Positions 8,246 to 58,974 of a stretch of DNA of 64,000 bases are shown here, piece after piece. The position numbers and the translations under genes were made by a program. How positions within the stretch are numbered: position 1 is the first letter of the stretch; each line of letters begins with the position of its first letter. The notes beneath the pieces are model-generated. The model did not search any database. It had not been told where the DNA came from and saw only the letters and a list, made by a program, of their open reading frames with translations. Source of the stretch: Serripes groenlandicus (lineage: Eukaryota; Mollusca; Bivalvia; Cardiida; Cardiidae); assembly GCA_031761405.1 (NCBI GenBank), contig JASEVX010000003.1, positions 111,302,579 through 111,366,578 of the forward strand, read 5' to 3'.

Positions 8246-8312
8246 GGAGCCAAACCAAGATTTAATCCTAGGTATAAGACATATTCAAACGACTGTCCAA
8301 GGTGCGGGAAAG

Positions 8313-33000: not shown

Positions 33001-36000
33001 TGCTCAGTAACTTGGGAATTCTATGATGCATGGTTTCTCATTTCGACATTTGATCTCTAAGTGTTACCTTTACCTTTGATGTACAGGCCTGTGTCTTGTG
33101 TGCGACGCGCAAACTCATCATGGTGAACATGTGTGCCTAGTAACTTGGGAAATCCTAGGATGCATGGTTGAGATGTGGGCCGGACAAGGTGGTCCTATCA
33201 AACAGTACTCATTTTGACCTGTGACTTCTAAGTGTGACCTTCATATTTGCGGTACGGGCCTGGGTCTTAAGCACGACACGACGCCTCAACAAGTACGTTT
33301 GTGCCAAACTTCCTGGAAATGATTAAGATGCGGGTCGAACAAGGTTGGGACATTTTGACATTTAACCTCTAAGAGTGACCTTGACCTTTTGAGGTGCATG
33401 CGTGGGTCTTGTACGCAACAGGCAACCTCATCGTGGTGACCACGTGTGCCTAGTAACTTATGAATCCTATGATGCACGGTTGAGATACGGGACGGAAAAG
33501 GTACAGTCCTATCAAACAGTACTCATTTTGACCTTTGACCTCTAAGTGTGACCTTGACCTTTGAGGTACAGGCCTATGTCTTGTGCGCCACATGTCACCT
33601 CATCATGGTGAGCATGTGTGCCCAGTTACTTGGGAATTATATGATGCGCGTATTCTCATTTCGACATTTGACCTCTAAGTTTGACCTTGACCTTTGAGTT
33701 AGAGTCATTCATATCACCGCACCATGGTTAATGACCTTGACAATTGATGTAAAAGCCTGGGTCTTGAGCGCGATACGCCGCCTTTTCATGGGTAATGTTT
33801 GTGCCAAATTTCTTGGAAATCCTGTCATGGATGATTAAGATGTGAGCCGGACAAGGTAGTCCTATCCAATAGTACTCATTTTGACTTTTGACCTATAAGT
33901 TTAACATTGACCTTTGAGGTACAGGCTTGCATCTTGTGTGCCACATGTCAACTCATCATGGTGTACATGTGTGCACAGTAACTTGGGAATTCTATGATGC
34001 ATGGTTTCTCATATCGACATTTGATCTCTAAGTGTTACCTTTACCATTGAGGTAGAGGCCTGTGTCTTGTGTTCGACAAGCCAACTCATCATAGTGAACA
34101 TGCGTGCCTATAGTAACTTGGGAATCCTAGGATGCATGGTTGAGATGCAGGCCGGACAAGGTGGTCCTATCAAACAGTACTCATTTTGACCTGTGACTTC
34201 TAAGTGTGACCTTCATGTGTTTGCAGTACAGGCCTGGGTCTTAAGCGCGACCACGTCGCCTCAACAAGAGTGTTTTTGTACCAAACTTCCTGGAAATGAT
34301 TAAGATGCGGGCCGGACAAGGTTGGGACATTTTGACATTTGACCTCTAAGTGTTACCTTGACCTTTTGAGGTACAGGCCTGGGACTTGTACTCGGCACGC
34401 CACCACATCATGGTGACCACGTGTGCCTAGTAACTTGTGAATGCTATGATGCATGGTTGAGATGCGGGACGGACAAGGTACAGTCATATCAAACAGTACT
34501 CATTTTGACCCTTGACCTTTAAGTGTGATCTTGACCTTTGAGGTACAGGCCTGTGTCTTGAGTGCCACATGTCACCACATCATGGTGAGCATGTGTGCCC
34601 AGTTACTTTGGACTTATATGATGCACGGATTTTCATTTCGACTTTTGACCTCTAAGTTTGACCTTGACCTTTGAGGTAGAAGCCTGTGTCTTGTGTCATA
34701 CATATCACCTCATCATGATTAACATTTATGCCCAGGCCTATGTCTTGTGCGCCACATGTCACCTCATCATGGTGAGCATGTGTGCCCAGTTACTTGGGAA
34801 TTGTATGATGCACGGATTCTCATTTCGACCTTTGACCTCTAAGTTTGACCTTGACCTTTGAGGTAGAGGCCAGTGTTTTGTGCCATACATATCACCTCAT
34901 CATGGTTAACATGTGTGCCCAGTAACTCGGGAATCCTATAATGCATGGTTGAGATGTGAGCCGGACAAGATATAGTCCTATAAAACAGTACCTATTTTGT
35001 CATTTGACCTCTAAGTGTGACCTTCAACATTGAGATACAGGCCTGGGTCTTGTGCGCGACAGGCCAAGTAACCATGTTGAACATGTGTGGCTAGTAACTT
35101 GGGAATCCTATGATGCATGGTTGAGATGCAAGCCGGACAGGGTACATTCCTATCAAACAGTACTCTTTCTGACCTTTGACCTCTGAGTATGACCTTGATA
35201 TTTGAGGTACAGGCATAGGTCTTGAGAGCAAGACGCCACATCCTCATTGTCATGGTTTGTGCCAAGTCTCTGGGAAATCCTATGATGAATGTTTAAGATG
35301 CGGGCCGTACAAGGTACAGTTCTCAAAGAGTACTCATTTTGATATTTTACCTCTAAGTGTGACCCTGACATTTGAGGTACAGGCATGGGTCTTATGCGCA
35401 AGACACCGCCTTATCTTGGTGAACGTTTGTGCTAAGGTTCTTGGAAATCATATGATGGATGGTCCAGATGTGAGTCGGACAAGAGGTAGTCCTATCAAAA
35501 AGGAATCATTTTGGCCTTGACCTTTAAGTGTGACCTTGACCTTTGAGGTACAGACCTGTGTCTTGCGCGCCACATGTCACCTCATCATGTGAACATATGT
35601 GCCCAGTAAGTTGGGAATTGTATGATGCATGGTTTCTCGTTTCGACATTTGACCTCCAAGGTACAGGCCACATGTCACCTCATCATGATGACCATGACCT
35701 TGCCCTTTGAGGTTCAGACCTTGCTCTTGTGTGCGACACGCCAACTCATCATTGTGAACATGTGCGCCAAGTAACTTGAGAATCCTATGATGTATGGTTG
35801 AGATGCGGGCCGGACAAGGTAGTCCTATCGAACAGTACTAATTTTGACCTCGGACCTCTAAGTATGACCTTGACATTTGAGGTTCAGGCCCCGGTCTTGT
35901 ACGAGACACGCCGCCTCATCATAGTGAACGTTTGTTCCAAGTTTCTTGGAAAGCCTAAGATGTATGGTTAAGATGCGGGCCGGACAAGATACAGTCCTAT

Positions 36001-36170
36001 TAAACAGTACTCCTTTTGACCTTTGACGTCTAAGTATGACCGTGACGTTTGAGGTACAGGCCTGATCTTGTGCACGATACGCCGCCTCAGTATGGTGAGC
36101 GTTTTTTCCAAGCTTCTTGGAAATTCTATAATGGATGGTTAAGATGCGGTCCGGACAAGGTTAGGTGGGA
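30060..36170. repeat. ~6.1-kb tandem array of ~175-bp units
   Basis: About 35 diverged units. Each contains TGACCTTTGACCTCTAAGTG then TGACCTTGACCTTTGAGGTA, AGGCCTGTGTCTTGTG, CACCTCATCATGGTGAACAT, CCCAGTAACTTGGGAATCCT, ATGATGCATGGTTGAGATG and CGGGCCGGACAAGGTA. Some units lack the segment from GTTGAGATG to the next TGACC. Two larger duplications are visible (see findings). Short frames inside are repeat artefacts. Confidence 0.95.
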
Positions 36171-37404: not shown

Positions 37405-38215
37405 TCTACGTTATCTGAACGTGACGGAGACGTTTTCTGACGTCTCCAGCTAACAAGTGCTGAAGACGTTGCCGTCACCCTTTTTTGTTACATTTATTCG
37501 ACGTATCGGTTTAGTTTTCTGAACGTGTTGAGGACTATTAGAAAACCTTTAAAATGCTTTGCCAATACCTGCAATGTACACGTCTTTAGGACGATGGTAA
37601 GACGTTTTCCAAGATAAAACGTGCTTAAAACGTTGCCGTCACCCTTTTTTGTTACATTTCTTCGACGTATCGGTTTAGTTTTCTGAACGTGTTGAAGACT
37701 GCTAGAAAACCTTTAAAATGCTTTGCCAAGACCTGCAATGTACACGTCTTTAGGACGATCGTAAGACGTTTTCCCAGATAACACGTGCTGAAGACGTTGC
37801 CGTCACCCAAACTTGTTACATTTCGTCGACGTATCGGTTCAGTTTTCTGAACGTGTTGAAGACTGCTAAAAAACCTTTAAATGGCTTTGCCAAGACCTGT
37901 AATGTACACGTCTTTAGGACGATCGTAAGACGTTTTCCCAGATAACACGTGCTGAAAACGTTGCCGTCACCCAAAAATGTTACATATCGTCGACGTATCG
38001 GTTTAGTTTTCTGAACGTGTTGAAGACTGCTAAAAAACCTTTAAATGACTTTGCCAAGACCTGCAATGTACACGTCTCTAGGACGATCTTAAGACGTTTC
38101 CCAGCTAACACGTGCTAAAGACTGCTAGAAAACCTTTCAAAGGCTTTGCCAATACCTGCAATGTACACGTCTTTAAAAGGTTCTTAAAACGTTTCCCTTA
38201 TAGTAACGTTTTGCA
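37405..38215. repeat. 164-bp tandem repeat, ~4.7 copies
   Basis: GCCGTCACCC occurs at 37471, 37635, 37799 and 37963, exactly 164 bp apart. Units include GAACGTGTTGAAGACTGCTA, CCTTTAAAATGCTTTGCCAA, GACCTGCAATGTACACGTCT and GGACGATCGTAAGACGTTTT. The last copy is shortened. Confidence 0.95.
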
Positions 38216-38334
38216 AAACGCATCAATACGTTTGCAAGACAGAATGAAAAGAAGACAGAAACCCCCTGAAGACGTTTTACAGTAGTGCTTAAAAGGTTTT
38301 AATGACAAAGCGAAGACATGTATATAATGAACCT

Positions 38335-38900
38335 TTTATTTTCTTTAAAATTTCGATATCCAAAAAAAACTATAAACTGAAAACTCAAGTTTCAAACTTG
38401 ACCTAGATATCACTAAGACAAACATTCTGACAAAAGTTTCAACATGCTCCATCCAAAAATATAGCTTCAAGAGTGTTAACAAGATTTTGCTTAAATTTGA
38501 CCTGGTGACCTAGTTTTTGACTGGACATGACCAAGTTTTGAACATTGCCTAGATATCACTAAGAAAAAACATTCTGACAAAGTTTCAACATGCTCAAGTA
38601 AAAAATGTGGCTTCCAGAGTGTTAACAAGAATTTCCTTAAATTTGACCTTGTGACCATGCTTTTAACCGGATATGACCCAGTTTCGAACATGACCTAGAT
38701 ATCACTAAGACAAACATTCTGGCATAGCTTCAACATGCATAATCTAAAAAAATAGCTTCCAGAGTGTTATCAAGGTTTTCCACCAATTTGACCTAATGAC
38801 CTAGTTTTTGACCGGACATAACCCAGTTTCGAACTTGACCTACATATCACTTAGACAAACATTCTGACAAAATTTCAACATGCCCAATTCAAAAGTATAG
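38335..38900. repeat. 146-bp tandem repeat, ~3.7 copies
   Basis: CCTAGATATCACTAAGACAA recurs at about 38402, 38548, 38694 and 38839. Units also share GACAAAGTTTCAACATGCTC, GCTTCCAGAGTGTTAACAAG and GACCTAGTTTTTGACCGGAC. The minus-strand short frames are artefacts. Confidence 0.9.
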
Positions 38901-39175
38901 CTTCTATAGTGTAAACAATTTGACCCAGCATGTAATGTTTATAAATGAGAATGTCATCAAGACACATGAGCATGTAATGTTTATAAATAAGAATGTCATG
39001 AAGACCCATAGCATTTTGGGGGATATTCCCTTCCATAGAAAAGTGCCATTTTTCAATTGGATTGAAATCGTGTAGGAAATGGAGCATTATGTTATGACCA
39101 AGTGTTCTTTTTCCTACAAATATTTCAATAATCATCAGTAAAACAGTTTCTGTGGAGGACAGGGTAAAGTTGTAA
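38901..39175. other. no gene recognised
   Basis: Contains a ~60-bp duplication (CATGTAATGTTTATAAATGA at about 38928 and CATGTAATGTTTATAAATAA at about 38970). Confidence 0.5.
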
Positions 39176-39390
39176 TCACTCGTTTATTTCTTCATTGTCA
39201 CTGGATGAGGATGAAGTTACATCGAGTTCGAATTGTTCAATTTTTGGAGTGCCAAATGAAGACGCCAGTTTGATCTTTTTGGCTTTATAAGCTGCACCAC
39301 CCTTTAGCCCGCTTGACCGCTTCAGTACATCACTGGCCCTTGACCTTAGACTGCATTCAGTTTCCTGTGGCGTTTTCCTTCGCAATACAC
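39176..39390 (-). CDS. candidate terminal exon of an unknown gene
   Basis: On the minus strand a good acceptor (TTTCCTTATTTTTGTAACAG) ends at 39391. The following frame is open for 71 codons to a TGA at 39176: basic start (LRRKTPQETECSLRSRASDV), a basic patch (AAYKAKKIKL) and an acidic Ser-rich end (SSSSSDNEEINE). Unlike most frames here it is hydrophilic with a balanced composition. No domain is recognised. Upstream exons would lie to the right; a link to the exon at 62.4 kb cannot be shown. Confidence 0.45.
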
Positions 39391-39697
39391 CTGTTACAAA
39401 AATAAGGAAATGATAATTAAAATGACAGGCATCCTTCGAGAATCGAAAACAATGCTTACACAGATCAGCCTCCGCGTTGTCAATGTCTGATCAGGGTCTA
39501 AACTGTTTGAGATAGTATTGGATGAAATTATCTTTACCAGCGTTAAATATTGTAAACCCTGATCAGGCGTCGCGTTCACAACGTGGTCGCTGGGCTTAGT
39601 CTACATATTTTGCAAAGCCTGAAGATCGCAAGCCAACTAATACAATTATCAGAAAGTTTAACGTTAAAGTTATTTTAAGGCTTAAATCCCATAAACA

Positions 39698-40925
39698 AGA
39701 GGGCCATGATGGCCCTGGATCGCTCACCTGATTTTTGATTTTTTCACTTTAGCAATATAAGCCCCCCCCCCCTGGTAGTTTCCTACACTGGCTTGGCTTG
39801 AAGAAATCCACTTTAGCCATATAAGGCAAAATAGCCACGCCCCCTGGCGGCCATGTTTTTTAACCAATCAACATGGCTTCAAGGAATCTGATAGAAGGTC
39901 ACCCAAGGAACATTTCTACAAAATTATTTGAAAATCGGCCAGACACTTTTGGAGGAGAAGATTTTTTATGTTTTCACCATAGCCATATAAGGCAAAATAG
40001 CCCCCCCCCCTGGCGGCCATGTTTTTCGACCAATCAACATGGCTTCAAGGAATCTGATAGAAGGTCACCCAAGGAACATTTCTACAAAATTATTTGAAAA
40101 TCGGCCTGACAATTTTGGAGGAGAAGATTTTTTAAGTTTTCACTATAGCCATATAAGTCAAAATAGCCCCACCCCCTGGCGGCCATGTTTTTCAACCAAT
40201 CAACATAACTTGAAGGAATCTGATAGAGGGTCACCCAAGGAAAATTTCTACAAAATTATTTGAAAATCGACCAGACACTTTTGGAGGAGAAGATTTTTTA
40301 AGTTTTCACTATAGCCATATAAGGCAAAATAGCCCCACCCCCTGGCGGCCATGTTTTTCAACCAATTAACATAACTTGAAGGAATCTGATAGAGGGTCAC
40401 CCAAGGAACATTTCTACAAAATTATTTGAAAATCGGCCAGACACTTTTGGAGTAGAAGATTTATTAAGTTTTCACTATAGCCATATAAGGCAAAAGAGCC
40501 CCACCCCCTGTTGGCCATGTTTTTCGACCAATCAACATGGCTTCAAGGAATCTATTAGAGGGTCACCCAGGAAACATTTCTACAAAATTATTCGAAAATC
40601 GGCCTGACACTTTTGGAGGAGAAGATTTTTTAAGTTTTCACTATAGCCATAACAGGCTAAATAGCACCCCCTCCCCTGGTGGCCAAGTTTTCACTATTTT
40701 TTTTTCATTTTGTTGCCATGGAAACCAGAATTCTGCATGGATACCAACAATTTGATGGAATTCTGGTGAGGCCATTGTGAGGATTCTTCATGTGAAGTTT
40801 CAGCCCAATTGACCCACTAGTTACTGAGGAGAAGAAGTTGACGCACGACGGCCGACGCACGACGGACGCCGGACAAAAGGCGATCACAATAACTCACCTT
40901 GAGCAAAGCTCAGATGAGCTAAAAA
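39698..40925. mobile_element. tandem-core element 1 (pearl/Helentron-like architecture)
   Basis: Left end ACAAGAGGGCCATGATGGCC then CTGGATCGCTCACCTGA. Five to six 166-bp core units follow (CTATAGCCATATAAGGCAAA, CCCCTGGCGGCCATGTTTTT, CAACATGGCTTCAAGGAATC, GGTCACCCAAGGAACATTTC, GAGGAGAAGATTTTTTAAG), with unit landmarks at 39873, 40039, 40205, 40371 and 40537. A unique right segment (GTTGCCATGGAAACCAGAAT) precedes the end CGATCACAATAACTCACCTT with the hairpin CTCACCTTGAGCAAAGCTCA. Tandem cores with a 3' hairpin are known in bivalve pearl/Helentron elements; the family assignment is inference. Confidence 0.7.
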
Positions 40926-41214
40926 CAATTACATGAAAGTTACATTTAAATTGCAGAAAACAATTTAAAATCAAATGGCACTGGAAGTTAACTACTTGTA
41001 TTGTTCTGTTCAAGACAGTGTTGTATAATTGCTGCTGTTATTTGATATACATATATATATTACAAACAAACACTTTCAAGACAAGCATTAATCTTTGTAC
41101 ATGACATCTAAAGTACAGGCATAATGATCGCTATTCAATTGTTATATCACAAACTCCAGATTATCCTAAACATTTACTAATGTTGCCACTGGTGTTTAAA
41201 GAGATATTTACTAA
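40926..41214. other. no gene recognised
   Basis: AT-rich spacer between two repeat elements. Confidence 0.5.
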
Positions 41215-41615
41215 CAAGAGGCCCATGCTCTACTGGCATGGATATTGAAGGTGTTATTGTGACAATCAAAAATAAAGAATTGTATTTTGTTAACCAGCTA
41301 TATTATAACAATTTTGACAATTTCAAGGTCCGTAATCCAGTCATGCATAAGCGGATCTGGCTGGTTTAGGAAAGGAACCAAGCTCTTATGGATTTCTAAC
41401 AACTGTATAAGTTTGATTGAGATACAATAAAAAATAAAGATTGTATTTTGTTAACAAGCTCTGTTATAGCAATTTTGACAATTTTAAGGGCCATAATTCA
41501 GTCATGCATGGGCAGTTCTGGCTGGTTTTCGAAAGGAACCGAGCTCTGATGGATATCTAACTACTGTATAAGTTTGGTGAGATACAATAAACATGGCCCT
41601 CGCTCATCTTGTTGT
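41215..41615. repeat. ~161-bp repeat, 2 copies, with element-like left end
   Basis: ACAAGAGGCCCATG resembles the left end of the 39698 element. Two units follow with TTGTATTTTGTTAAC.AGCT, AACAATTTTGACAATTT, CAGTCATGCAT and GGAAAGGAACC.AGCTCT, ending GATACAATAAACATGGCCCT. Confidence 0.75.
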
Positions 41616-42749
41616 TTTTTTCATTTTAGCCATATAAGCCCTGCCCCCCTGGTAGTTTCCTACACTGGCTTGACTTGAAGACATCTGATAGAGGGCACCA
41701 TAGGAACATTTCTAGTAAATCTTTTGAAAATCGGCCAGACACTTTCGGAGGAGAAGATTTTTTAAGTTTTCACTTTAGCCATATAAGGCAAAATAATCCC
41801 GCCCCCTGGCGGCCATGTTTTTCAACCAATCAACATGGCTTGAAGGAATCTGATAGAGGGTCAGCCAAGGAACATTTCTTCAAAATTATTTGAAAATCGG
41901 CCTGACACTTTTGGAGGAAAAGATTTTTTAAGTTTTCAATATAGCCATACAAGGCAAAATAGCCCCGCCCCCTGGAGGCCATGTTTTTTGACCAATCAAC
42001 ATGGCTTCAAGGAATCAGATAGAGGGTCACCCAAGGAACATTTCTACAAAATTATTTGAAAACGCCCTGACACTTTTGGAGAAGAAGATTTTTTAAGTTT
42101 TCACTATAGTCATATAACGCAAAAAGCCCCGCCCTCCAGGCGGCCATGTTTTTTGACCAATCAACATGGCATGAAGGAATCTAATAGAGGGTCATCCAAA
42201 GAACATTTCTACAAAATAATTTGAAAATCGGCCTGACTCTTTCGGAGGAGAAGATTTTTTAAGTTTTCACAAAGACCTAATAACACAAAGATATGAAACG
42301 ATCTAATAGATAAAGAACAAATCTCGAGAAGGTTACACTTCTCAACGCGACAGACCATGTGACCAGCGAGATTACGCGAGATTCCAATAACCGAATCGGC
42401 AGCCATTTGCAATTTGAAAACAATGGATAATTAATTGATAACTCCTCAACAAATGTAAAGATTGATGACTGAAAGACATTAATTGGTAAGTAGTTTACGT
42501 TTATAAATCATTTATATCAGGTGATGTTAATTTGATAATAAACATTAATTTTCTAACACAATGGTAAGAAAATTGCGGTCGGTGGTTAGTGGGTGGGGTA
42601 TAATTAAATATAATTGAGCTTTCAGTTAAGTAGAATGTGTTTTTTCCTCGGTGCTGACATGAATAAATTATTCTTTTTGTTTTATCTCTTGATGTCGTGA
42701 ACGGTTTTTATAAAATCGGCTTCTATTTGCTTTCATAATCGTATTTTGT

Positions 42750-46521: not shown

Positions 46522-47394
46522 GGAAAAATAATTGGAAAATCGGCCCGACACTTTCAGGAGAAGATTTTTTAAGTTTTCACTATAGCCATATAGGGCAAAA
46601 TAGCCCAGCCCCCTGGCGGCCATGTTTTTTGACTAATCAATATGGCTTGAAGGAATCTGATAGAGGATCACCCAAAGAACATTTCAACAAAATTATTTGA
46701 AAATCCGCCCGACACTTTTGGAGAAGGAAGATTTTTTAAGTTTTCACTATATAGTCATATAAGGCAAAATAGCCCCGCCCCCCTGGCGGCCATGTTTTTT
46801 GACCGATCAACATGGCTTCAAGGAATCTGATAGAGGGTCACCCAAAGAACATTTCTACAAAATAATTTCAAAATTTTCCAAACAGTTTGGGAGAATAAGA
46901 ATTTTGAAGTTTTTTTTCGTTTCGTTGCCATGGAAACCAGAATTCTGCATGGATCCTAAAGATTTGAAGGAATTCTGATGGGGCCATTGAGAGGATATTT
47001 CCTGTGAAGTTCCAGCCCAATTGACCCACTGGTTACTGAGAAAAAGAAGTAGACAGACGACGGACGACGGACAAAAGGTGATCACAATAGCTCACCTTGA
47101 GCAAAGCTCAGGTGAGCTTAAAAAATGAAATATAGAGCTCACTTTAGTTGAATAGTTAGGTTCCAAACGTTTTTAATTCCTTGAACTTTTTAATTACACA
47201 TGAATATCTGACCTGCAACAATAAAAATTATACCAATATATGTTCTTTTTTATAGCAGATCATGTAAGTTTAACCCTCCACAAGCTATGTTTAGACTAAT
47301 CCAAAAGGAAAGGATCTGATGAAAAATATGAACATATAGCTAAAAGAAAAATGCCATTTTAGAATAATTATATTGAGAACAGTGTATGAAATGA

Positions 47395-47436: not shown

Positions 47437-47997
47437 GTAGATATTTGACACATGAACTTATGTTTGTATGTTAATTTGGTAGTCTGGTTCCCTGCGTACT
47501 GTAAGAACCATGACTTGTGACTGTTTGTTATAAAACATCACAGGTCATGATTATTAACCTTCCTTTTTCATCTGATTTATTAATTCATTCAATATGCAAT
47601 TTCATGTTTGTTCCTGCATTAGTAAAGTCGTCATTTCATTGTATATTGTCATTATGAATCATTGAATAACTAGTCATTAACATAAGTTTACCTCTTAAGT
47701 CCTTCCATTACAATGTTGAAGACGTTGTCATTTCTTAGTCTAAATCCGATGTTTGTAAAACTCCATTTAATGTTTATTCCGTCTGAGTTTATCACTTAGA
47801 TGTGTAGAAAAGTTATTTAGATGTTACTATGCACATAATACGAAAAAAAAACATGAATGGTTTTTTTCGCTTATAGTTAACAGGTGTAAGATTTTTTTTT
47901 TTTTTTTTTTTTTTCAATAACCCATGAAGCTTTTTGAAATGAAACTGGAAAAATCCATGGGGGCCGCCATTTTGGTTATGTATAAAAAGCAGACGTA

Positions 47998-48220
47998 AAA
48001 CACAGATTGAAAATTATTGTCGGCTTTTTAATCATTGTTTTTTAAATCGGCATTTTGGATATGTATAAAATGAGCAGAAAAACACGGATTGAAAATTATT
48101 GTCGTCTTTTTAATCATTTTTTTTTAAATCGATTTTTGAGTATGTAAAAAATGAGACGATAAACACGGATTGAACATTATTGTCGTCTTTTTAATCCTTT
48201 TTTTTTTTAAATCGATATTT
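47998..48220. repeat. ~81-bp tandem repeat, 3 copies
   Basis: Each unit has AAACAC.GATTGAA.ATTATT then GTCG.CTTTTTAATC, a T run, AAATCG and TATGTA.AAAATGAG. Confidence 0.85.
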
Positions 48221-48527
48221 AAGATCATTTAAGTGCTGTGTTATGTGGGAATTTACATTTGTACGAAAAGTTAAAAATAAATGGAACTCTGTAAGAAATA
48301 TGTTTTCCCGTTTGTCAAAAAATCGACAGCATTAACCTTCTACGCCCGAATCTAAATTTTGACTGTATCGTAGCCAAAGAAGGACGTGACGTCATTTCCG
48401 TTACACTTCATCTTAGCGTAACGTCAATGGAGCGATGTCGTTTCCCGCAAAAAATGTGGTATCAACATGAAAGACCCAAAATTCCTATGCATGAGCTATT
48501 GACTCACTCATTCAAAGTATAATTATT

Positions 48528-48653
48528 TATCAAACATTGTGGCAAAAGCATAACTTTCTCATAAGGAGCAATTGTTCTTTTGGCGACAATCTTTTCCTAA
48601 ATCGTCTGTTGCAAAGGCCTCAGAAACCATCTCTAATAGGGAAATGGTTTAGC
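48528..48653. mobile_element. TTAA-type palindromic MITE, copy inside the LTR-only segment
   Basis: AACATTGTGGCAAAAGCATA, AGGAGCAATTGTTCTTTTGG then CGACAATCTTTTC, AAATCGTCTGTTGCAAAGGC, CATCTCTAATAGGGAAATGG. The terminal TTAA is decayed. Confidence 0.7.
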
Positions 48654-49667
48654 AGAAATGTGACCATTTACATCATTTGTTCCAGTCATATTGACTGGTT
48701 GAAAAAGGCAGTCGCCAAGTGGCATCAGAAAAGGGCTGATCTATTTGCTTCTTTACCATAATGCAGGTGATCGATTTAGGATCATCTTGGCCCTCATGTT
48801 TTAACCTCGTTCATTATAAATGTATTCCTTGATTTGCTGAAAGTCTTTACTTTATTATTTTCTGTTCGTAATAATAGACGACAGCAATATGAATTCCAAA
48901 TATGTTTTGATAATGCAAGAAACATGACATTAACATTATTATTGTCTAGTCAATTACTCATAAATCCCTTTTTATGGCCAAAGTATGCTCTTAAATTTTT
49001 GTTTATAATTATCTTACGTTTTTTTCGTAAATAGGTAGTACCTATAGATATATTAGTTGATGATAATTCATGATGACCGCGTATTTTGTGGAAACATTGC
49101 CTGAATTTGGCTGTCACATTGTAAGCGTACATTTTGGAAACTTTCAGTTGTTGTTGTTGTTGTTGTTGTTTCCTGAAGGTCGTTTTAGAATTAGCCCCAA
49201 ATGCATTAGCAACTTCCAAAAGTCATTTTGTGTGCATAATTTAGTCAACCTATTTATATCTATTGTAAATCTTGTACAGAGAGTATCTATTTAATTGAGT
49301 ATTTGACTTTGTGTTGTTTCGTCTGGGCACTATTTGTTCAGGATGGATCAGGCGGAAGGAATGTCCGATCCTGACATCCTGAGTTACTAGATTATTTGTT
49401 TAATCAGTTAATTACCGTAGATTCGCTCCATGTGCCATTTGAGACTGACATAAGCATCATTTCTGTGTACTGTTATTTTGTGAACTATATTTGTGTAATT
49501 AATATTGGTCATTTTTCCACGCTGTCAGCCTGTTTACACCATTTTACTATAGAGCGCATGAATTTACGATAGAAAATACTACGAGTTTCTGATTGGTCTG
49601 CTTCCATCCTGAGCGCATCCTGACGAGATTTGATTGGTTGAATCTGTTTGTTGTCAGGATGGAACAT

Positions 49668-49675
49668 TATAAATA
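49668..49675 (+). promoter_or_regulatory. LTR TATA box
   Basis: TATAAATA lies about 140 bp before the LTR end and is conserved in the 3' LTR. It would place the transcript start near 49695-49705, upstream of the donor at 49768. Confidence 0.6.
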
Positions 49676-49763
49676 GAGGTGTAAACAGTCAGCAGCAGCG
49701 GCATTATTTGATCAATGAAACTTTGAACTTCTCAACAATTACAACTATTAAAACTTGAACTTA

Positions 49764-49773
49764 AAAGGTAAGA
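49764..49773 (+). promoter_or_regulatory. candidate splice donor in the LTR leader
   Basis: AAAG|GTAAGA (exon end 49767) fits the donor consensus and is unchanged in the 3' LTR near 58264. It could pair with the acceptor at 55241 to make an mRNA for the third frame. Confidence 0.6.
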
Positions 49774-49813
49774 CTTCGGAGTTGTTTTATGTAGGAAAAA
49801 CGCTTCTTACAAT

Positions 49814-49825
49814 TGGTGTCAGAAC
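49814..49825 (+). other. primer-binding site (tRNA-Leu type)
   Basis: TGGTGTCAGAAC starts two bases after the 5' LTR. It complements the 3' end of a tRNA-Leu (CCA plus GTTCTGACA-like acceptor stem). Confidence 0.75.
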
Positions 49826-49916
49826 TTAAGGATCATATATTTTGATCTTTGCAACCTTGCCTGGATTTTTAAAGCAGAAAACTTTTTTTTTACACAAGTT
49901 TCGTTGACTTATTATA

Positions 49917-51080
49917 ATGGCCGACTCACCAGATCCAGAAGTGACATTCAACCACCCCATTGAGAGTAATGAAACTGAAACTACATTAGAAAATCCAGAA
50001 ATACAGCCCCGAGATATATCTTCATCAGAACAGTCTGAATGTTCTGATCAGGAGACAGATTTTTACACATCAAATTACAAAACAAACTCACAGAACACAT
50101 ACCCCAGTGATAGAAGCAGACGACACATCCGATTTAGAACCCCGGACACACATTCCTCAGCAAATCAAACCAATAATGGAATACTTCATAGACACACATC
50201 TCAACATACATTCAGACCCTCTTCTATTACACATACAGTGAAACCCGAACATTATAATGGTGAAGAAGGTTTTGAACTGTATTTATCATACTTTGAGGAC
50301 TGCTCAGAGCTCTCTGGGTGGGATGATAGTACAAAGGTACTGATGCTTGCTACAAGTTTAAGAGGTGCTGCCCGAACTTATTACATGAGTCTAACTGAGT
50401 TTGAGAGGCGACACTATAGTCAGCTTGTTGAAAGACTAAGCTGTAGGTTTGGTGTCACCAAGCATCAGAGTAAGTGGTTGAGCAAGTTGGAGTTCAGAAA
50501 GCGCCAGAGGAATGAAAGCATCGCAGCTTTAGGCGACGATCTCCGTCAGCTTGCTCAGAAAGCCTATTCTGATCTAGATACCAGAGCACAAGAAAAACTT
50601 GCTCTCAACCAGCTGTACAAGCTCCTTCCCCTTGAAATGAAATGTAGATGTATAGATAATGACTGCCAGACAGTTAATAGTGCAGTAGCAGTGATTGAAC
50701 GCTATGAGTCTATTCTGGGAGAAAACAGTGCGCCTGTCCGTTCAGTAGATATGAATCCCTCTGGCAGCCAGAATCAGAGCACCGACAGCACCTTTGTTCT
50801 TCAGGCATTGGAAGGTGGCAAATCCCGCCTTGAGCAATTAAAGAAAAACTGCTACAAAACTGTCTTTTCTAGTGAAACTAATCGCACTAAAAGACCTTTA
50901 AACAAAAATTGCTTCCATTGTAACTCCCCAGATCATTTCATTAGAAACTGTCCGTACAGAACACCGCAAAACACTAACACACATAATGACAATCATCCAC
51001 ACAGGTCGTACAATACTGCTACTTCTGCTAGTAGTAACCATGGTAACCACCAGGAAAACTTTCAGCAGTCGACATTGTAG
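49917..51080 (+). CDS. gag: Gag of the Gypsy element
   Basis: 387 residues from ATG 49917, 92 bp after the PBS. The N-terminus is acidic and Ser/Thr-rich. The capsid region spans about residues 105-260 (YNGEEGFELYLSYFEDCSEL, LMLATSLRGAARTYY, QLVERLSCRFGV, SKLEFRKRQRNESIAALGDD, NQLYKLLPLEMKCRCID). One zinc knuckle follows near residue 330, CFHCNSPDHFIRNC (CX2CX4HX4C), as in retroviral nucleocapsid. The tail is His/Asn/Ser-rich. The frame is intact. It would assemble particles around the genomic RNA. Pol follows in the -1 frame, with the frames overlapping at the end of gag, so frameshifting is expected. Confidence 0.93.
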   Translation: MADSPDPEVTFNHPIESNETETTLENPEIQPRDISSSEQSECSDQETDFYTSNYKTNSQNTYPSDRSRRHIRFRTPDTHSSANQTNNGILHRHTSQHTFRPSSITHTVKPEHYNGEEGFELYLSYFEDCSELSGWDDSTKVLMLATSLRGAARTYYMSLTEFERRHYSQLVERLSCRFGVTKHQSKWLSKLEFRKRQRNESIAALGDDLRQLAQKAYSDLDTRAQEKLALNQLYKLLPLEMKCRCIDNDCQTVNSAVAVIERYESILGENSAPVRSVDMNPSGSQNQSTDSTFVLQALEGGKSRLEQLKKNCYKTVFSSETNRTKRPLNKNCFHCNSPDHFIRNCPYRTPQNTNTHNDNHPHRSYNTATSASSNHGNHQENFQQSTL

Positions 51081-54000
51081 GCCAGCAGTCGACTGCCAAC
51101 AATACATCAGGGCCTACTACACTACAATTAGAAAAGGAAAATGTTCATTCAGCAAGAGCAGGTACAGCATTTAATGTACATGACAATGGCTTTTATATAA
51201 CTGGTAAACTTAACTCTACATCTGCAAATTTCTTGATTGACTGCGGAGCAACCGCTTCATTGATATCAACCAGATAATTTGCTGAAATTAAGGACAAAAG
51301 TCCTTTGAGGAAAATTGAATATACACTTCAAGATGTAAATGGAAATGATATGACAGTCTATGGCTCAGCAGACATACTGGTCAGACTTGGTAGTGAAAAC
51401 TTTGATTTGCCATTCATAGTCTGTGATCTTCATATGGATGGATTGTTGGGCCAAGATTTCCTCAAGGAACATGTAGAGAGCATTAGCTATAGACAGTCTT
51501 GTCTTATTATCCAAGATAAACAAATTCCTCTCTGGACTGGTGGTGAATCAGTTCATGTGTGTCGTGTTGAAGTTAAAGAGACTGTGCAACTACCCCCTAA
51601 ATCAAGGATGTGGCTTTCTGTAAATGTACCTCAGGCAGAATATTTGTCTAAAAATGGTTTTATTGAGCCTTCCCTGGATGTAATGGCAAAGAAAGAGGTC
51701 ATTGTAATGGGAGGCATATTGGATCTTAGCACAGATAACCACATAGTAAATGTTATTAACTATGGGGAGGAGTGTGTTACTTTAAATGCAAACATGAAAC
51801 TTGGAACATGCGAGTCATTCTATGAGCAAGATAAGCAACCCGTCAGGCATGTTGCACAAGTGTCTGAAACATCAGCCAGCGACCTGCCATCACATTTGCA
51901 TGATCTTTTTGAACGAAGTACATCAAATGGCAATGCACATGAGAAACAAAGAATCTCTGAACTATTGACAAAATACCAGTACATTTTCTCAAAGTCTTCC
52001 GAAGACATAGGTCATACTGACCTGGTCACTCATAAAATCAACACGGGAAATTCAGCACCAGTCCGTCAACCCCCGAGACGGCTTCCCTTCGGAAAACGTC
52101 AAATTGAAAAAGATGAAGTTGAGAAAATGCTTAATCGTAGAATCATTGAGCCATCTTCAAGTGCATGGGCTTCACCAGTCGTACTGGTCACGAAAAAAGA
52201 TGGCACACCTCGGTTTTGTGTCGACTATCGAAAGGTCAATGATCTCACAGTTAAAGACGCGTACCCGCTTCCCCGTGTCGATGACTGTCTGGACTCTCTT
52301 TCGGGTGCAAAGTATTTCAGTTCTCTCGATTTGAATTCAGGGTATTGGCAAGTTGGCATGTCAAAAAGGGACCGAGACAAGACTGCATTCGCGACAAGTA
52401 TGGGTCTCTATCAATTCACAGTCATGAGTTTTGGACTTTCAAATGCTCCATCGACGTTTGAAAGACTCATGGAAAATGTATTGAGAGGTCTGCAATGGGA
52501 AGAATGTCTTCTCTATATAGATGACATAATCATCCCCTCTGAAACAATTGACCAGGGTTTGATTCGCTTAGAGCATATTTTTAAACGCCTCCAGAGTGCA
52601 AACCTTAAATTAAAACCATCAAAATGTTCGCTTTTTCAAACTTCTGTCAAATTTTTAGGGCACATAGTTTCAGAATCTGGTATTTCAACAGATCCAGCAA
52701 AAGTTGAGGCTGTTCAAAACTGGCCTATTCCAAAAAATGCTAAGGAAGTAAGAAGTTTTCTTGGTTTGTGTTCTTACTATAGACGTTTTGTTGGCAATTT
52801 TGCACAAATTGCGAAACCTCTTCACATAATTGCTGAAAAATCAAACAAATTCACATGGTCTCCTGAATGTGAAAAGGCATTCAATCAACTGAAGAAAGCC
52901 CTCACAACATCACCAATTTTAAGCTATCCAAAACCCAATGAACCGTTCATTTTGGATACGGATGCTTCAGATTAAGCAACCGGTGCGGTTCTGTCCCAGA
53001 TTCAAGATGGTAAAGAGACTGTCATAGCTTATCAAAGCAAAACTCTCAACAAACATGAGGTCTCTTACTGTGTTACACGGAAAGAGTTTTTAGCCGTTAT
53101 AAACGCTCTAAAATTCTTCCATTCTTACCTATATGGTCAGAATGTATTACTACGTACAGACAATGCAGCTGTTTCGTGGATGAAAAATTTGAAGAATCCA
53201 ACTGGCCAAGTAGCCAGATGGCTTCAAGAACTTGCTACCTACAACATGACAGTTAAGCACAGACCGGGTGCACAACATAGAAATGCAGATGCCCTTTCAC
53301 GAAAACCCTGCACTAGTTGCAGGAATCAACAACAGCAAAATAGTTCGGTCGAGATCTGCTCTGATGCTGAAACTGACCCATCACCCCCCAGCACACCTAT
53401 TTTAGTTCCCGACTGTACAAGAGCTATAACAAGAAGCCAAAACAATAGCACCTTAATACAAAAAGACGCATTGCTTCCTGGTTGGTCACATGCTGATATC
53501 AGGAAGAATCAGTTAGCTGATCCTGATCTACACTTCATCATAACAACAATTGAACAAGCTAACACGAGACCTCAATGGTTTTCAGTTTCAGATAAATCCA
53601 CTACTGTGAAGTCACTGTGGAAATCATGGGAAAGATTATCAATACAGAATGGCATGTTATTTCGCACTTGGATAGAAGATGAAAATTCAACATGCAAGCA
53701 ACTGATTGTCCCCCTTTCTATGCGAAATGATGTCATGTATTTCTTCCATGATATTCCCTCGTCTGGCCATCTTTGTACTGACAAGATGCTTGGGAAGCTA
53801 AAAAATGTCTTTTACTGGCCAGCAATGAAAAGTTCCGTTGAAAAATACTGTAAATCATGCCATGCATGTGCAGCTAGAAAACATCAGAAACCTGCGCATG
53901 CTCCCCTTGGTTCTAAGCCTGTGTTAGAACCTATGGAGAAGTGCTCAATTGACATTTTTGGCCCATTGCCAAGAACATCAAGAGGTAACAAATACATACT

Positions 54001-54856
54001 AGTCATGACCGATCTCTTCTCCAAATGGACAGAAGCCATTCCACTGCCAAACCAAGAGGCAGAAACAATAACCAGAGCTTTCGTCAATGAGTTTGTTTGC
54101 CGTTTTGGAGTGCCCATGCAGTTGCACTCTGATCAGGGGCGAAATTTTGAAAGTAAACTATTTGGTAGTATGTGTGAACATCTTCACATTTATAAGACCA
54201 GAGCTTCCCCTCTACGACCACAGTCAAATGGCTGTGTAGAAAGATTTAATCGTACACTGGCTTCTATGTTGACCATGTATTGCGAATCCGATCAAAGTAC
54301 ATGGGATGAATTTCTGCCCCAAGTCATGATGGCTTATAGATCATCCATTCATGCAAGTACTGGCAAGACTCCAAACAGGATGGTTTTTGGAAGAGAAGTT
54401 ATCCTACCATTGCAAGCCTGTACTGGGATACCTCCATCTTCCATTAACCAGTCTGCTTCAGACTTTGACACATATGTGGATGAGCTGAAGTATCGCCTTA
54501 CAAAGGCTCATGATTTAGCAAGACAAACCCTAAAGAAAAAGTCAAATTACCAAAAACGTCATTATGATAGGACAGCTAAGTCCAGGTCTTTCAGTATTGG
54601 CCAAGCTGTCTGGTTACACGACCCCAGTAGACGTCCCAATATTTGTAGTAAGTTGTCGTCAAAATGGAAAGGTCCATACATCATCACGAAAAAGCTTGAT
54701 GATATTATATATCTTGTTAAAAAGTCTAAGAAATCCCCAGCAAAAGCCTTACATATTGACCGTCTCAGAGTATATGAAGGAAAGGAAATACCATCATGGT
54801 TGTCAACATTTAGAACAGCTATGATGAAAGATATGTCTGAATCTAACTGCCAGTAG
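51081..54856 (+). pseudogene. pol: Pol of the Gypsy element (protease-RT-RNase H-integrase), two nonsense codons
   Basis: One reading frame from the end of gag to 54856, broken only by TAA at about 51275 and TAA at 52973. Protease: FLIDCGATASLIS (about 51233) and LLGQDFLKEH. RT: FCVDYRKVND, YPLPRVDDCLDSLSGAKYFS, YQFTVMSFGLSNAP, LLYIDDIII (catalytic YIDD at about 52515), KFLGHIVSESG, SFLGLCSYYRRF. RNase H: FILDTDASD then TGAVLSQIQDG and LLRTDNAAVSWM. Integrase: HHCC zinc module around GHLCTDKML…CKSCHAC, DDE core in CSIDIFGPL, HSDQGRNFES and GCVERFNR, GPY/F-type module at KWKGPYII. The first stop cuts the protease just after its active site; the second cuts RNase H. Confidence 0.93.
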
Positions 54857-55243
54857 AGCATCTCATAATACAACGAGATTAGTGTGAAATGAGTGTTGCT
54901 TTGCGGAAAATGAATTGTGTGAATATCATTGTGAGAACATTGGATGTTCAATGTAGGTTCAGATGAAGGAGAAGGTTCATCTGTGGAAAAGGCGCGCGCA
55001 TTTAGCAGATCTGCAACCCCTGTTGACTGATGTGGTCTGATCAACCAACAGTCAGTTAATATAGAATATGTCTAATGATTTGGGGCAGTTCATTAGTTCG
55101 CGAAGCAGCCCGTTTCATCAAAGTTAAGTCATCTCAAGATAAGTCTGTATTTGCATCTAGTGAACAGTGTGGGCAGTTTGGATTCAACATGATCAGCAGA
55201 AAGATTGATATTTCATGAATCTAACTTCCTTTCAATTTCAGCC
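54857..55243 (+). other. pol-ORF3 spacer with splice acceptor
   Basis: About 385 bp of noncoding sequence. It ends with CTAACTTCCTTTCAATTTCA then G (AG at 55240-55241), a pyrimidine-rich 3' splice site just two bases before the ATG of the next frame. Confidence 0.6.
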
Positions 55244-56923
55244 ATGAAATCCAAAATAGCTAGCTTCAACTGTGACAAATGTCCATCAACATTCAACTCC
55301 AGGAAAGATCTACTTGCACATAGTTCAACAGCAAACCACAACCCAATAAGATTCATTTGTGTATGGTGCAGTACCAAAGAGTCAACGGAGTTCAGGAGGG
55401 CAAGTGATATGAAGTACCATGTTAAAACCCAGCATGCTCTGGTATATGAAAATCTACCAAAAGACTTGTTCAGTACAGCAGCCTGCTTTTACTTTTCACC
55501 TGTGCCTGAACAGTACATGAAGTTTCACGACCCTACACCTTCTTACAGCCACATTTCAACTCTTGCCATGGAAGCCGTGGCACGTTGGAGTGAAGGTAGA
55601 CCTCGCTCCCTCACTCAGTGGAAGGAAGGATGGAAGTTGGCAGAGATCACTTCAACGTCTCTGCCAAAGCCTACATCATCCGATGTCAACAACAACAAAA
55701 GAGCAGCCCCCTCATCAGAGCTGACCAGCGTGAAGATAAGCCCTGATGATATTAATGCACTTTTTTTATTTAATGACATCACCTATATGGCAAAACTTGA
55801 CCTCACAATCTGCACTAATCTTAAGTCAATGTCGTCATTAAACAGGAGGGCTATAACTCTGCCAACACAAGAAACCTTATGTCCCGGCAGCTGGCACCTC
55901 TGTACCGATGCTTGTGTGCGGAAAGAAGCTGCTCAGTTGCTTGGGGTGGAATCCCAATTTATCCTCAACATCTTACAAAGGAAAGAAACGGCTTTCAAAA
56001 TCATTAGGCCCGAGCTTGAGTCGGACTTTAACAAGGAAGTCAGTTGCATTTCCGCAATTATGGTTCCTTGCAACACAAACAGCTCTGTAGGACGTCATGG
56101 TAACACCAGCCCCTTGAAACAAACATCTGATGTCACAGTATCTGCTTTTTCTTCCTTGTCTTCTTCTTCTTCTTCTTATTGTTCGTCTCCTCACAACTCC
56201 TTTAGATCACCTTCTCCTATTGCTTTGGAAGAAGCCCAGGAGGAGTACAACCCCGAGAAACCAGAGATCATCCCCATGAATGAATTAACATCAAATCTGC
56301 CTTTATCAACTTATCAGCCGTGTACCACGTCACTTAAAGAAACTGCCACTTTAACACCAGCTTCTTCAATGCCCATTACCTCAGTGCCACCTGTTACATG
56401 TACAGAGCCATCTTCTTCAACACCTGCCACCCCAACGACCCAAAGTTTAGCACTAGAAATAATTTCAGCCGGATGTATGCCACTTCTGCCGCCCGCCCGA
56501 AGGGATTGGTCCCAAGTCCCTGATGAATCTGTTGTTCTTGTACATGGACAGCTCAATTGGCCTCCCAAAGGATGGAAAAATATGACCCCTGACCGAAAGC
56601 TTCTCTGTGTAGAGTTTGCAGCTATGATCTTGTCTGATCGGGGATTGAACCTAAATATGGAGAGGGATTTGTTGTTAGGTTTCAACAACCATCTAATTCT
56701 CCAGGGCACCCCAGTCAGACAAGATAACCCTTCGAGCAAGTCCAGGTACTATAATTATCAGACGCTGAGGGAGATCGCAAATGGAACCAGTCCTTATCCA
56801 CCATCCATTCAGAGGAGTCTGGTATATAATTACTCCACCCTTCAAAGATGTCTTTCTGCCGGTACTCTACAGAAGTTGGCACACATACCCCTAAGAATGA
56901 ATGCTTCCCCATTACCAAAGTGA
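55244..56923 (+). CDS. third ORF of the Gypsy element: protein with two C2H2-type zinc fingers
   Basis: 559 residues from ATG 55244 (AGCC-ATG context, purine at -3) to TGA 56923; the frame is open slightly further upstream, but splicing would start the exon at 55242. Finger 1: C10-X2-C13-X12-H26-X5-H32 with F17 and L23 in canonical places. Finger 2: C39-X2-C42-X16-H59-X4-H64. A middle Ser/Thr/Pro-rich region (about residues 290-420, including a Ser run) looks disordered. The last ~140 residues look folded (VLVHGQLNWPPKGWKNMTPD, LLCVEFAAMILSDRG, YNYQTLREIANGT, LVYNYSTLQRCL). There is no signal peptide or membrane segment, so it is not an envelope protein. It lies between pol and the polypurine tract, inside the LTR bounds, same strand. 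I recognise no known family for the C-terminus. A captured host zinc-finger gene or a nucleic-acid-binding accessory protein are both possible. Confidence 0.85.
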   Translation: MKSKIASFNCDKCPSTFNSRKDLLAHSSTANHNPIRFICVWCSTKESTEFRRASDMKYHVKTQHALVYENLPKDLFSTAACFYFSPVPEQYMKFHDPTPSYSHISTLAMEAVARWSEGRPRSLTQWKEGWKLAEITSTSLPKPTSSDVNNNKRAAPSSELTSVKISPDDINALFLFNDITYMAKLDLTICTNLKSMSSLNRRAITLPTQETLCPGSWHLCTDACVRKEAAQLLGVESQFILNILQRKETAFKIIRPELESDFNKEVSCISAIMVPCNTNSSVGRHGNTSPLKQTSDVTVSAFSSLSSSSSSYCSSPHNSFRSPSPIALEEAQEEYNPEKPEIIPMNELTSNLPLSTYQPCTTSLKETATLTPASSMPITSVPPVTCTEPSSSTPATPTTQSLALEIISAGCMPLLPPARRDWSQVPDESVVLVHGQLNWPPKGWKNMTPDRKLLCVEFAAMILSDRGLNLNMERDLLLGFNNHLILQGTPVRQDNPSSKSRYYNYQTLREIANGTSPYPPSIQRSLVYNYSTLQRCLSAGTLQKLAHIPLRMNASPLPK

Positions 56924-57193
56924 AATTTAATGAAATATTCAATTTATGATGATTGTCATTAACTTAAGTAAGATAATTAATTGATTTAGTATCAATGTGT
57001 TAATTTCTGACCAAGAGACTTATGAACAGTGTACCAGTGAACAACGGATAGGTTGGACTATGCCTTATTTATATGAAAAAAATGTCAAGACATTGAGACG
57101 GAGGATCTAGTTTACTAATTTCACGTTAATTTATATAGAATACTGCTCAAGTTACCACAGTGCGTCTCAAACTTCAGGAGAAGTTTATTTCTT
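56924..57193 (+). other. noncoding 3' region of the Gypsy element
   Basis: AT-rich sequence between the third frame and the polypurine tract; no frame supported. Confidence 0.6.
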
Positions 57194-57207
57194 TAAGGAG
57201 GGGCAAG
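57194..57207 (+). other. polypurine tract
   Basis: AAGGAGGGGCAAG lies directly before the 3' LTR start TGTAAGAACC and would prime plus-strand DNA synthesis. Confidence 0.75.
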
Positions 57208-58308
57208 TGTAAGAACCATGACTTGTGATTGTTTGTTATAAAACATCACAGGTCATGATTATTAACCTTCCTTTTTCATCTGATTTATTAATTCATTCAA
57301 TATGCAATTTCATGTTTGTTCCTGCATTAGTAAAGTCGTCATTTCATTGTATATTGTCATTATGAATCATTGAATAACTAGTCATTAACATAAGTTTACC
57401 TCTTAAGTCCTTCCATTACAATGTTGAAGACGTTGTCATTTCTTAGTCTAAATCCGATGCTTGTAAAACTCCATTTAATGTTTATTCCGTCTGAGTTTAT
57501 CACTTAGATGTGTAGAAATGTTATTTAGATGTCACTATGCACATAATAGTTGATGATAATTCATGATGACCGCGTAGTTTGTGGAAACATTGCCTGAATT
57601 TGGCTGTCACATTGTAAGCGTACATTTTGGAAACTTTCAGTTGTTGTTGTTGTTGTTGTTGTTGTTTCCTGAAGGTCGTTTTAGAATTAGCCCCAAATGC
57701 ATTAGCAACTTCCAAAATGTTATTTTGTGTGCATAATTTAGTCAACCTATTTATATCTATTGTAAATCTTGTACAGAGAGTATCTATTTAATTGAGTATT
57801 TGACTTTGTGTTGTTTCGTCTGGGCACTATTTGTTCAGGATGGATCAGGCGGAAGGAATGTCCGATCCTGACATCCTGATTTACTAGATTATTTGTTTAA
57901 TCAGTTAATTACCGTAGATTCGCTCCATGTGCCATTTGAGACTGACATAAGCATCATTTCTGTGTACTGTTATTTTGTGAACTATATTTGTGTAATTAAT
58001 ATTGGTCATTTTTCCACGCTGTCAGCCTGTTTACACCATTTTACTATAGAGCGCATGAATTTACGATAGAAAATACTACGAGTTTCTGATTGGTCTGCTT
58101 CCATCCTGAGCGCATCCTGACGAGATTTGATTGGTTGAATCTGTTTGTTGTCAGGATGGAACATTATAAATAGAGGTGTAAACAGTCAGCAGCAGCGGCA
58201 TTATTTGATCAATGAAACTTTGAACTTCTCAACAATTACAACTATTAAAACTTGAACTTAAAAGGTAAGACTTCGGAGTTGTTTTATGTAGGAAAAACGC
58301 TTCTTACA
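57208..58308 (+). repeat. 3' LTR
   Basis: 1101 bp, TGTAAGAA…TTCTTACA (8-bp perfect inverted ends), with a (GTT)n run near 57645, TATAAATA and the AAAGGTAAGA donor as in the 5' LTR. Followed by GTAC. Confidence 0.93.
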
Positions 58309-58974
58309 GTACTATATGACAAATACTACGTCAGGCACACCACAAACATGGCGGAGCCCAGTGTATCCGATAAGACAAATATAGCCAAGAGTAACTCCTA
58401 TACCCTGTAGGGCACACTTTTTAAAATTTAAACTTGCACTTATATTTGTGTATGTTAAAAGAAAATATCTTCATTTTGTCCCTCTTTCGTAGGTTTAAGA
58501 TATAATTCCTCAATTTATTTACTTATCAAGTAGCTACATTTCGGATGGTGTTATGTATTTCGGATACACATAAGAGTATATTCTGTTTCGAGATAGTATC
58601 TGTCAATGTATTAAGGGGTGGCTACGTAAAACATTGAATATAAATATCATTTCGTTTTATACCTTGAAGTGGCTTACTTGGGTATTTACAATTTGATATA
58701 ATTTTGGGTTTTTTAGGTTATTTCTGATGCAATTACCAAATACAATCAGCTTTGTTCAACACATATACAAACACTTAAGACTCTGCAACAAGATACATTG
58801 AAAAAGTTATTTGCAGGTTACGATTGCCTCTGTTGCTTACCAACTGGATTAACTATGTGCATGCTAGCTGCAGATTTCGTTAACCGTTGGTGGTGTTTTC
58901 AAACAGTTTGGACACAGATCAGGCCAAGAAAACAAGGGGCCTGATCTGAGATCCAAACTGTTTGACACTCGGTT

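Follow-up and report, generated by a model that had tools for sequence, protein, structure and literature searches.

Is the long open reading frame that lies 3' of pol in a bivalve Ty3/Gypsy retrotransposon a gene of the element, and what might it do there? The question is raised by a 64,000-nucleotide stretch of the Serripes groenlandicus genome (assembly GCA_031761405.1, contig JASEVX010000003.1, forward-strand positions 111,302,579–111,366,578), referred to below as the window and numbered from its first base. The element occupies 47500–58308 on the plus strand, and its third open reading frame (ORF3, 559 codons, plus strand, 55244–56923) lies between pol and the 3' long terminal repeat (LTR). 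The original prediction described ORF3 as a zinc-finger protein in the envelope position with splice signals for its own mRNA. As an observation this is confirmed by the 559-codon frame, by six protein relatives (E 6e-37 to 9e-26) and by strong donor and acceptor signals; its interpretation is partly supported. An open frame of 559 codons has a probability of ~2e-13 to 2e-16 at this base composition and is not a product of chance. Almost certainly, ORF3 is a genuine third gene of a Gypsy lineage and is under selection.

The predicted protein starts with two C2H2-type fingers (residues 10–32 and 39–64), followed by a WKEGW block (residues 126–130), a predicted folded domain (residues ~158–246), a serine/threonine/proline-rich linker and a conserved C-terminal region containing GCMPLLPPARRDW (residues 410–422). 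The six relatives come from a search of ~5.8 billion proteins, in which scoring was confined to the 7992 candidates with the most shared words, and are 24–35% identical to ORF3 in the matched part. They are 35–48% identical among themselves and 25–28% identical to the window ORF3. All seven proteins keep both fingers as well as the motifs W-[KR]-E-G-W and GCMPL-x-PPARR-x-W. The zinc-ligand (C-C-H-H) patterns of both fingers are present in 13 of 13 sequences, seven of which are near-copies within the two families described below. The AlphaFold model has a mean predicted local distance difference test score (pLDDT) of 43.7 overall and 78.7 for the middle domain alone, for which no convincing fold match was found. 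The proposed disorder therefore does not extend over the whole middle, as residues ~158–246 are predicted to fold. The C-terminus, proposed to be folded, is conserved about as well as the fingers but has no confident structure model. Apart from weak C2H2 matches, ORF3 has no significant sequence relative in Pfam, NCBIfam or PDB.

ORF3 recurs in the 1.76-Gb genome of the same species, where 57 matching stretches were found, the window included. Fifteen chosen stretches (two of them arms of one inverted pair) were retrieved with flanks, together with four decayed places. In all 15, reverse transcriptase (RT) precedes the ORF3-like sequence in the same orientation, and integrase (IN) does so in 14, an internal deletion accounting for the exception, L012. 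In 12 of the 15, half of gag or more lies upstream (exceptions L009, L016 and L023). The stretches fall into two families. Family A (four of 15) has an ORF3 94–96% identical to that of the window. Family B (11 of 15) is far more divergent from the window by tblastn: gag 42–51% identical in ten, IN 48–56% in ten, RT 61–64% with one 80% segment in L016, and ORF3 26–41% in pieces, or 34–35% over the aligned length. At the decayed places, pol pieces lie upstream of ORF3-like sequence in three and none was found in the fourth; two of the four are, as judged by their LTRs, old members of A and B. Both families moved recently, because LTR pairs are identical or nearly so (1084/1084 in L010 of family A; 99.5% over 1306 in L012 and 1362/1362 in L015 of family B). 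Two rearranged copies were also seen. L009 and L023 (G000:C1:243795184-243806764) are family-A copies arranged head to head as an inverted pair, with truncated 5' parts and identical ORF3. In L012 (G000:C825, family B), the internal deletion fuses the RT frame with ORF3 into one open frame of 1185 residues between LTRs that are 99.5% identical, and this copy is possibly a non-autonomous derivative.

The ratio of nonsynonymous to synonymous substitution rates (dN/dS) among ORF3 copies had been named as a test able to refute the prediction. Calculated by NG86 for copies with open frames, it shows that ORF3 is under purifying selection in both families. In family A, dN/dS is 0.30 for the window and L010 (21 synonymous and 21 nonsynonymous changes), 0.42 for the window and L011, and 0.51 for L010 and L011; ORF3 is identical in L009, L010 and L023. 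In family B, it is 0.05–0.15 for the six pairs formed by L014, L015, L016 and L017, which were picked for a frame open over >700 codons, other B stretches having shorter or broken ORF3 frames. Synonymous changes are in excess by one-sided binomial tests (family A, P 1.7e-4 for the window and L010, 5.8e-3 and 8.9e-2 for the other pairs; family B, P 3.4e-4, 3.8e-5 and 1.2e-3 for three of six pairs), with the neutral synonymous fraction set by hand at ~0.24 and pairs that are not independent. For comparison, family A dN/dS is 0.19–0.57 for gag, 0.16–0.38 for RT except one near-identical pair (1.33), and 0.23 for IN against the window; the family-B pairs, with few changes, range from 0 to 0.98 for gag and from 0 to 0.79 for RT. 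Across the two families, synonymous sites have reached saturation and dN is 0.32 (RT), 0.42 (IN), 0.51 (gag) and 0.76 (ORF3). ORF3 is therefore the fastest-changing of the four, yet it is kept.

A further argument for selection, the contrast between an intact ORF3 and a decayed pol, was rejected. The window pol does contain two in-frame TAA codons (51275 and 52973), but it has no frameshift, and at the LTR divergence the expected number of nonsense changes is 0.53 for pol and 0.21 for ORF3. The open ORF3 of this single copy therefore proves nothing. The recurrence of ORF3 3' of pol in two families, its dN/dS and its zinc ligands support the broader claim that ORF3 serves a bivalve Gypsy lineage as an accessory or regulatory protein.

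In family A, ORF3 probably has its own spliced mRNA, as the arrangement of splice signals suggests. The predicted donor AAG/GTAAGA (49768–49769, plus strand) scores 6.99, the highest value for any of the element's 384 GTs (next 2.88). A branch-point-like CTAAC at 55221 leads to the predicted acceptor TTTCAG (55221–55241 together, plus strand), which ends two bases ahead of the ORF3 ATG, as had been predicted. This acceptor ranks third among 515 AGs in the element, behind one AG inside pol and one inside ORF3, and is clearly the best in 54700–55300 (4.49, next 1.33). The weight matrix used for both sites is unfitted to this species. Contrary to the first proposal, this donor falls within the 5' LTR rather than in the leader after it; it probably lies near the R/U5 boundary, because a TATA box (TATAAA, 49668–49673) and an ATTAAA (49747) precede it. 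All four further family-A copies share the acceptor and its two-base spacing to the ATG, and the LTR donor is present in L010 and L011, the two whose stretch covers it. In family B, the ORF3 frame has no in-frame ATG ahead of finger 1 before a stop is reached, so that its start would need to come from an upstream exon; an acceptor is found 59 bases before the first matched codon, and several in-phase donor/acceptor pairs, one inside gag, could define the first exon. Envelope-style splicing is thus supported at the level of sequence in family A, and family B offers an acceptor and several candidates for the first exon. Two family-B leaders have peculiarities of their own: in L014 the LTR end and primer-binding site occur twice, and in L017 the first ATGs after the TATA box are ATGATG with a short open frame.

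The U3 regions of both families contain arrays of short repeated sites. In family A there are six TCAGGAT sites, five of them as TCAGGATG. They are located in the 5' LTR at 49338+, 49368-, 49376-, 49606-, 49617- and 49654+ (span 49338–49660), and in the 3' LTR at 57835+, 57865-, 57873-, 58103-, 58114- and 58151+ (span 57835–58157), in two groups upstream of the plus-strand TATA at 58165. Elsewhere, TCAGGAT occurs once in the internal region of the element and nine times in the 64 kb outside it. Family B has seven CCAGCAT sites, six as GCCAGCAT. The two cores have CAG-N-AT in common; CCAGCAT is absent from the A LTR, and TCAGGAT occurs once in the B LTR. In each family the sites are dispersed, lie in both orientations and include closely spaced pairs. 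The A and B LTRs do not align (only 11-base matches), yet the layout of the sites relative to the TATA box is similar (A: -329, -300, -292, -62, -51, -13; B: -523, -316, -278, -267, -70, -26, -14). No shuffle of 400 reached the site-array score of A (9.7) or of B (11.9). Six CCAGCAT sites survive in a decayed B copy, as do two TCAGGAT sites in a decayed copy of family A. Two C2H2-type fingers could allow a protein to read 6–8 bases, and the length of the repeated core matches this span. The core has changed in all sites together between the families, as would be expected if an element-encoded reader had changed as well.

We tentatively favour the reading that ORF3 is a nuclear, DNA-binding regulator of its own LTR that co-evolves with promoter sites; it is the likeliest of the readings considered, though at slightly less than even odds. 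Specifically, splicing between the LTR donor (49768) and the acceptor that ends at 55241 would yield a subgenomic mRNA from which ORF3 is translated, and would supply the protein separately from gag-pol. The regulators of complex retroviruses are likewise supplied by splicing, apart from gag-pol. The protein would then move into the nucleus, a location suggested by basic motifs resembling a nuclear localization signal (NLS), which a simple pattern finds in six of six database relatives and four of four family-B proteins. There, the fingers would bind the arrays of 7–8-base sites in their own U3, TCAGGATG in family A and GCCAGCATC in family B, and bound ORF3 would either activate transcription or lift host silencing. 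Protein and sites would co-evolve, each family answering to its own regulator.

A more specific version is possible but more doubtful: a two-finger, element-encoded factor reads family-specific LTR sites, protein and sites have changed together, and the pair acts as an on-switch or anti-silencing key private to each family, which would make it the counterpart, in an animal LTR retrotransposon, of the plant VANC system. VANC of VANDAL elements is likewise reported to be an element-encoded, sequence-specific protein acting on the non-coding DNA of its own family (PMC5735166, PMC10398659). VANDALs, however, are DNA transposons of Arabidopsis and VANC is anti-silencing, whereas binding and anti-silencing by ORF3 are only proposed here. 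If ORF3 does read its own LTR arrays, escape of a retrotransposon from animal host control by means of its own regulator becomes directly testable, as would co-evolution of protein and sites between element families within one genome.

Several results weigh against ORF3 as an LTR regulator. The U3 motif search was post hoc, and in plain counts shuffles reach the top 8-mer (five copies) in 5 of 500 cases and the 7-mer (six copies) in 21 of 500. Of 104 control stretches taken from the window, at least 12 outscore the A LTR, ten of these 12 over tandem arrays. The match in layout has P values of 0.0007 one way, 0.12 the other way, 0.009 for both together and 0.043 by circular shift, and the similarity between the A and B cores has P 0.048. 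The U3 arrays may instead be bound by host factors. Pfam recognises finger 1 only, and under the gathering score (17.3 bits against 27, and 16.6 against 25.2). By the simple pattern, the NLS-like motif is present in none of three family-A proteins, the window ORF3 among them. Finally, the family-B dN/dS describes kept copies only, four of 11 B stretches.

The main rival, which we consider rather unlikely, is that ORF3 resembles CERV of Cer1 or retroviral Rev: translated from a spliced mRNA, it would act in the nucleus to export unspliced genomic RNA, with its fingers on RNA. Any element that splices must export unspliced RNA, and the anatomy of the window element matches that of Cer1, a Gypsy/Ty3 element of Caenorhabditis elegans. 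In Cer1, a non-Env ORF in the env position, between pol and the 3' LTR, has a TTTCAG acceptor, is expressed from a spliced mRNA, acts as a nuclear regulator and is needed for export of genomic RNA (PMC10309623); for ORF3, the spliced mRNA and nuclear role are proposed. The likeness considered here is anatomical, and there are differences: the family-A ORF3 has two C2H2-type fingers and a separate ATG, whereas the five-exon CERV has peptides in common with Gag (PMC10309623). RNA folding speaks against this rival, since neither the pol–ORF3 spacer (z -1.68, equalled by 6 of 100 shuffles) nor the 3' spacer (z +0.34, equalled by 124 of 200) stands out clearly from shuffled sequence. RNA export also leaves the U3 arrays unexplained, for which LTR regulation would account, although ORF3 could play both roles together.

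It is improbable that ORF3 is instead a replication or virion accessory protein, such as an extra nucleic-acid chaperone or a factor for import of the pre-integration complex or choice of target site. Purifying selection, the position 3' of pol and the NLS-like motifs of family B and the database relatives are all compatible with such a role, but a separate spliced message would mean other amounts and timing than those of gag-pol. Still less probable is a captured fragment of a host gene carried as a passenger. Codon use of ORF3 differs from that of gag and pol (P 0.009), but RT deviates from gag and IN just as much (P 0.009), and codon use was therefore rejected as a sign of foreign origin. 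A passenger also accords poorly with purifying selection on ORF3 in two divergent families and with the lack of sequence relatives in Pfam, NCBIfam and PDB beyond weak C2H2 matches. A diverged envelope protein, suggested by position and splice anatomy, can practically be dismissed, since the proteins carry N-terminal zinc fingers and none of the seven has a transmembrane or other hydrophobic stretch (best 19-residue Kyte-Doolittle mean 1.09 in the window, <=1.56 in relatives), in contrast to the transmembrane envelope of env-bearing Gypsy elements (errantivirus type).

Third ORFs in the env position of Gypsy elements are already known; a C2H2-type ORF3 in an animal Gypsy element was not found among the papers listed in the literature searches, which did not extend to Repbase and most subscription journals. 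The additional ORFs described for LTR elements of plants (Retand, Bagy2 and Grande, the last named in a reference title) are also extra genes towards the 3' end of the internal region, some of them nuclear or spliced (PMC7264820). Their hosts are plants, and the terms 'zinc finger' and 'C2H2' are absent from the available main text of PMC7264820. Among bivalve elements, Steamer and C-clade Gypsy are likewise Ty3/Gypsy, and 'third ORF', 'zinc finger', 'C2H2' and 'envelope' are absent from the available main text of PMC8905726. 'Zinc finger' is also absent from the available main texts of the mollusc surveys PMC6238403 and PMC8905726 and of the annelid survey PMC8556966. Troyka elements are widespread in bivalves too, but they have CG...CG ends, 3-bp target-site duplications (TSDs), LTRs of 100–400 bp and mostly a single Gag-Pol (PMC12440569). 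Membership of the window element in Troyka was rejected on its TG...CA ends and 4-bp TSD.

The window element is a young Ty3/Gypsy insertion, flanked by the TSD GTAC (47496–47499 and 58309–58312). Over 1095 aligned bases its LTRs show seven mismatches, and they further differ by two small indels, of 3 bases and of 1 base; the input ends of the alignment were one base off, which produces extra slips at the alignment ends. The 5' LTR (47500–49811) and the 3' LTR (57208–58308, 1101 bases) both lie on the plus strand and have TG...CA ends, which together with the 4-bp TSD agree with Ty3/Gypsy elements (Metaviridae; 4–6 bp TSD). The primer-binding site TGGTGTCAGAA (49814–49824, plus strand), which we take to be of tRNA-Leu type, follows the 5' LTR, and a polypurine tract (57195–57207, plus strand) adjoins the 3' LTR. 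The 5' LTR also contains a 1215-base insertion (47839–49053) with about three 81-base tandem units at 47968–48206. This insertion came in later than the element itself, since the 3' LTR is without it.

Upstream of ORF3, gag (49917–51080, plus strand, 387 residues) has a putative CCHC knuckle that is visible as a pattern and aligns with gag relatives, although its zf-CCHC match is below the cut-off (18.2 bits against 20.8). The pol frame (51047–54856, plus strand) is -1 relative to gag and encodes protease (PR), RT, RNase H and IN. Pfam matches follow the Ty3/Gypsy domain order (RVT_1 5e-34, RT_RNaseH_2 4e-12, H2C2 2e-18, rve 3e-16). PR is recognised by eye only, with a Spuma_A9PTase match of 20.6 bits, just below the cut-off of 21.

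The protein database yielded 148 gag relatives, of which 120 were listed. Wherever a listed relative carries an animal name, it is that of a bivalve (Mytilus coruscus, M. edulis, M. galloprovincialis, Pinctada imbricata, Dreissena polymorpha and Potamilus streckersoni), which fits the guess of a mollusc lineage. Two listed relatives are labelled as metagenome-assembled genomes of Candidatus Thiodiazotropha, a bacterial genus of clam symbionts. The best gag identity is 68% over 42% of the length, and that of ORF3 is at most 35%. The contrast between 148 gag relatives and six ORF3 relatives speaks against universal keeping of ORF3 in the gag lineage; outside the S. groenlandicus genome, ORF3 may be patchy or fast-evolving.

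The rest of the window contains other traces of repeats and mobile elements. A minus-strand ORF at 2008–3039 has a GDSL/SGNH hydrolase domain (Pfam E 4e-9) and is perhaps a mobile-element or domesticated ORF. Two open frames at 7667–8909 look like gag and PR of another LTR element; the aspartyl-protease match, found in the second frame, is weak (E 0.002). An RT fragment at 25389–26531 (RVT_1 E 1e-15) apparently derives from a long interspersed nuclear element (LINE). Diverged tandem arrays with units of ~95–320 bases occupy 30094–36159, 37446–42270 and 46525–46913, and the region at 30–36 kb is higher in GC than its surroundings.
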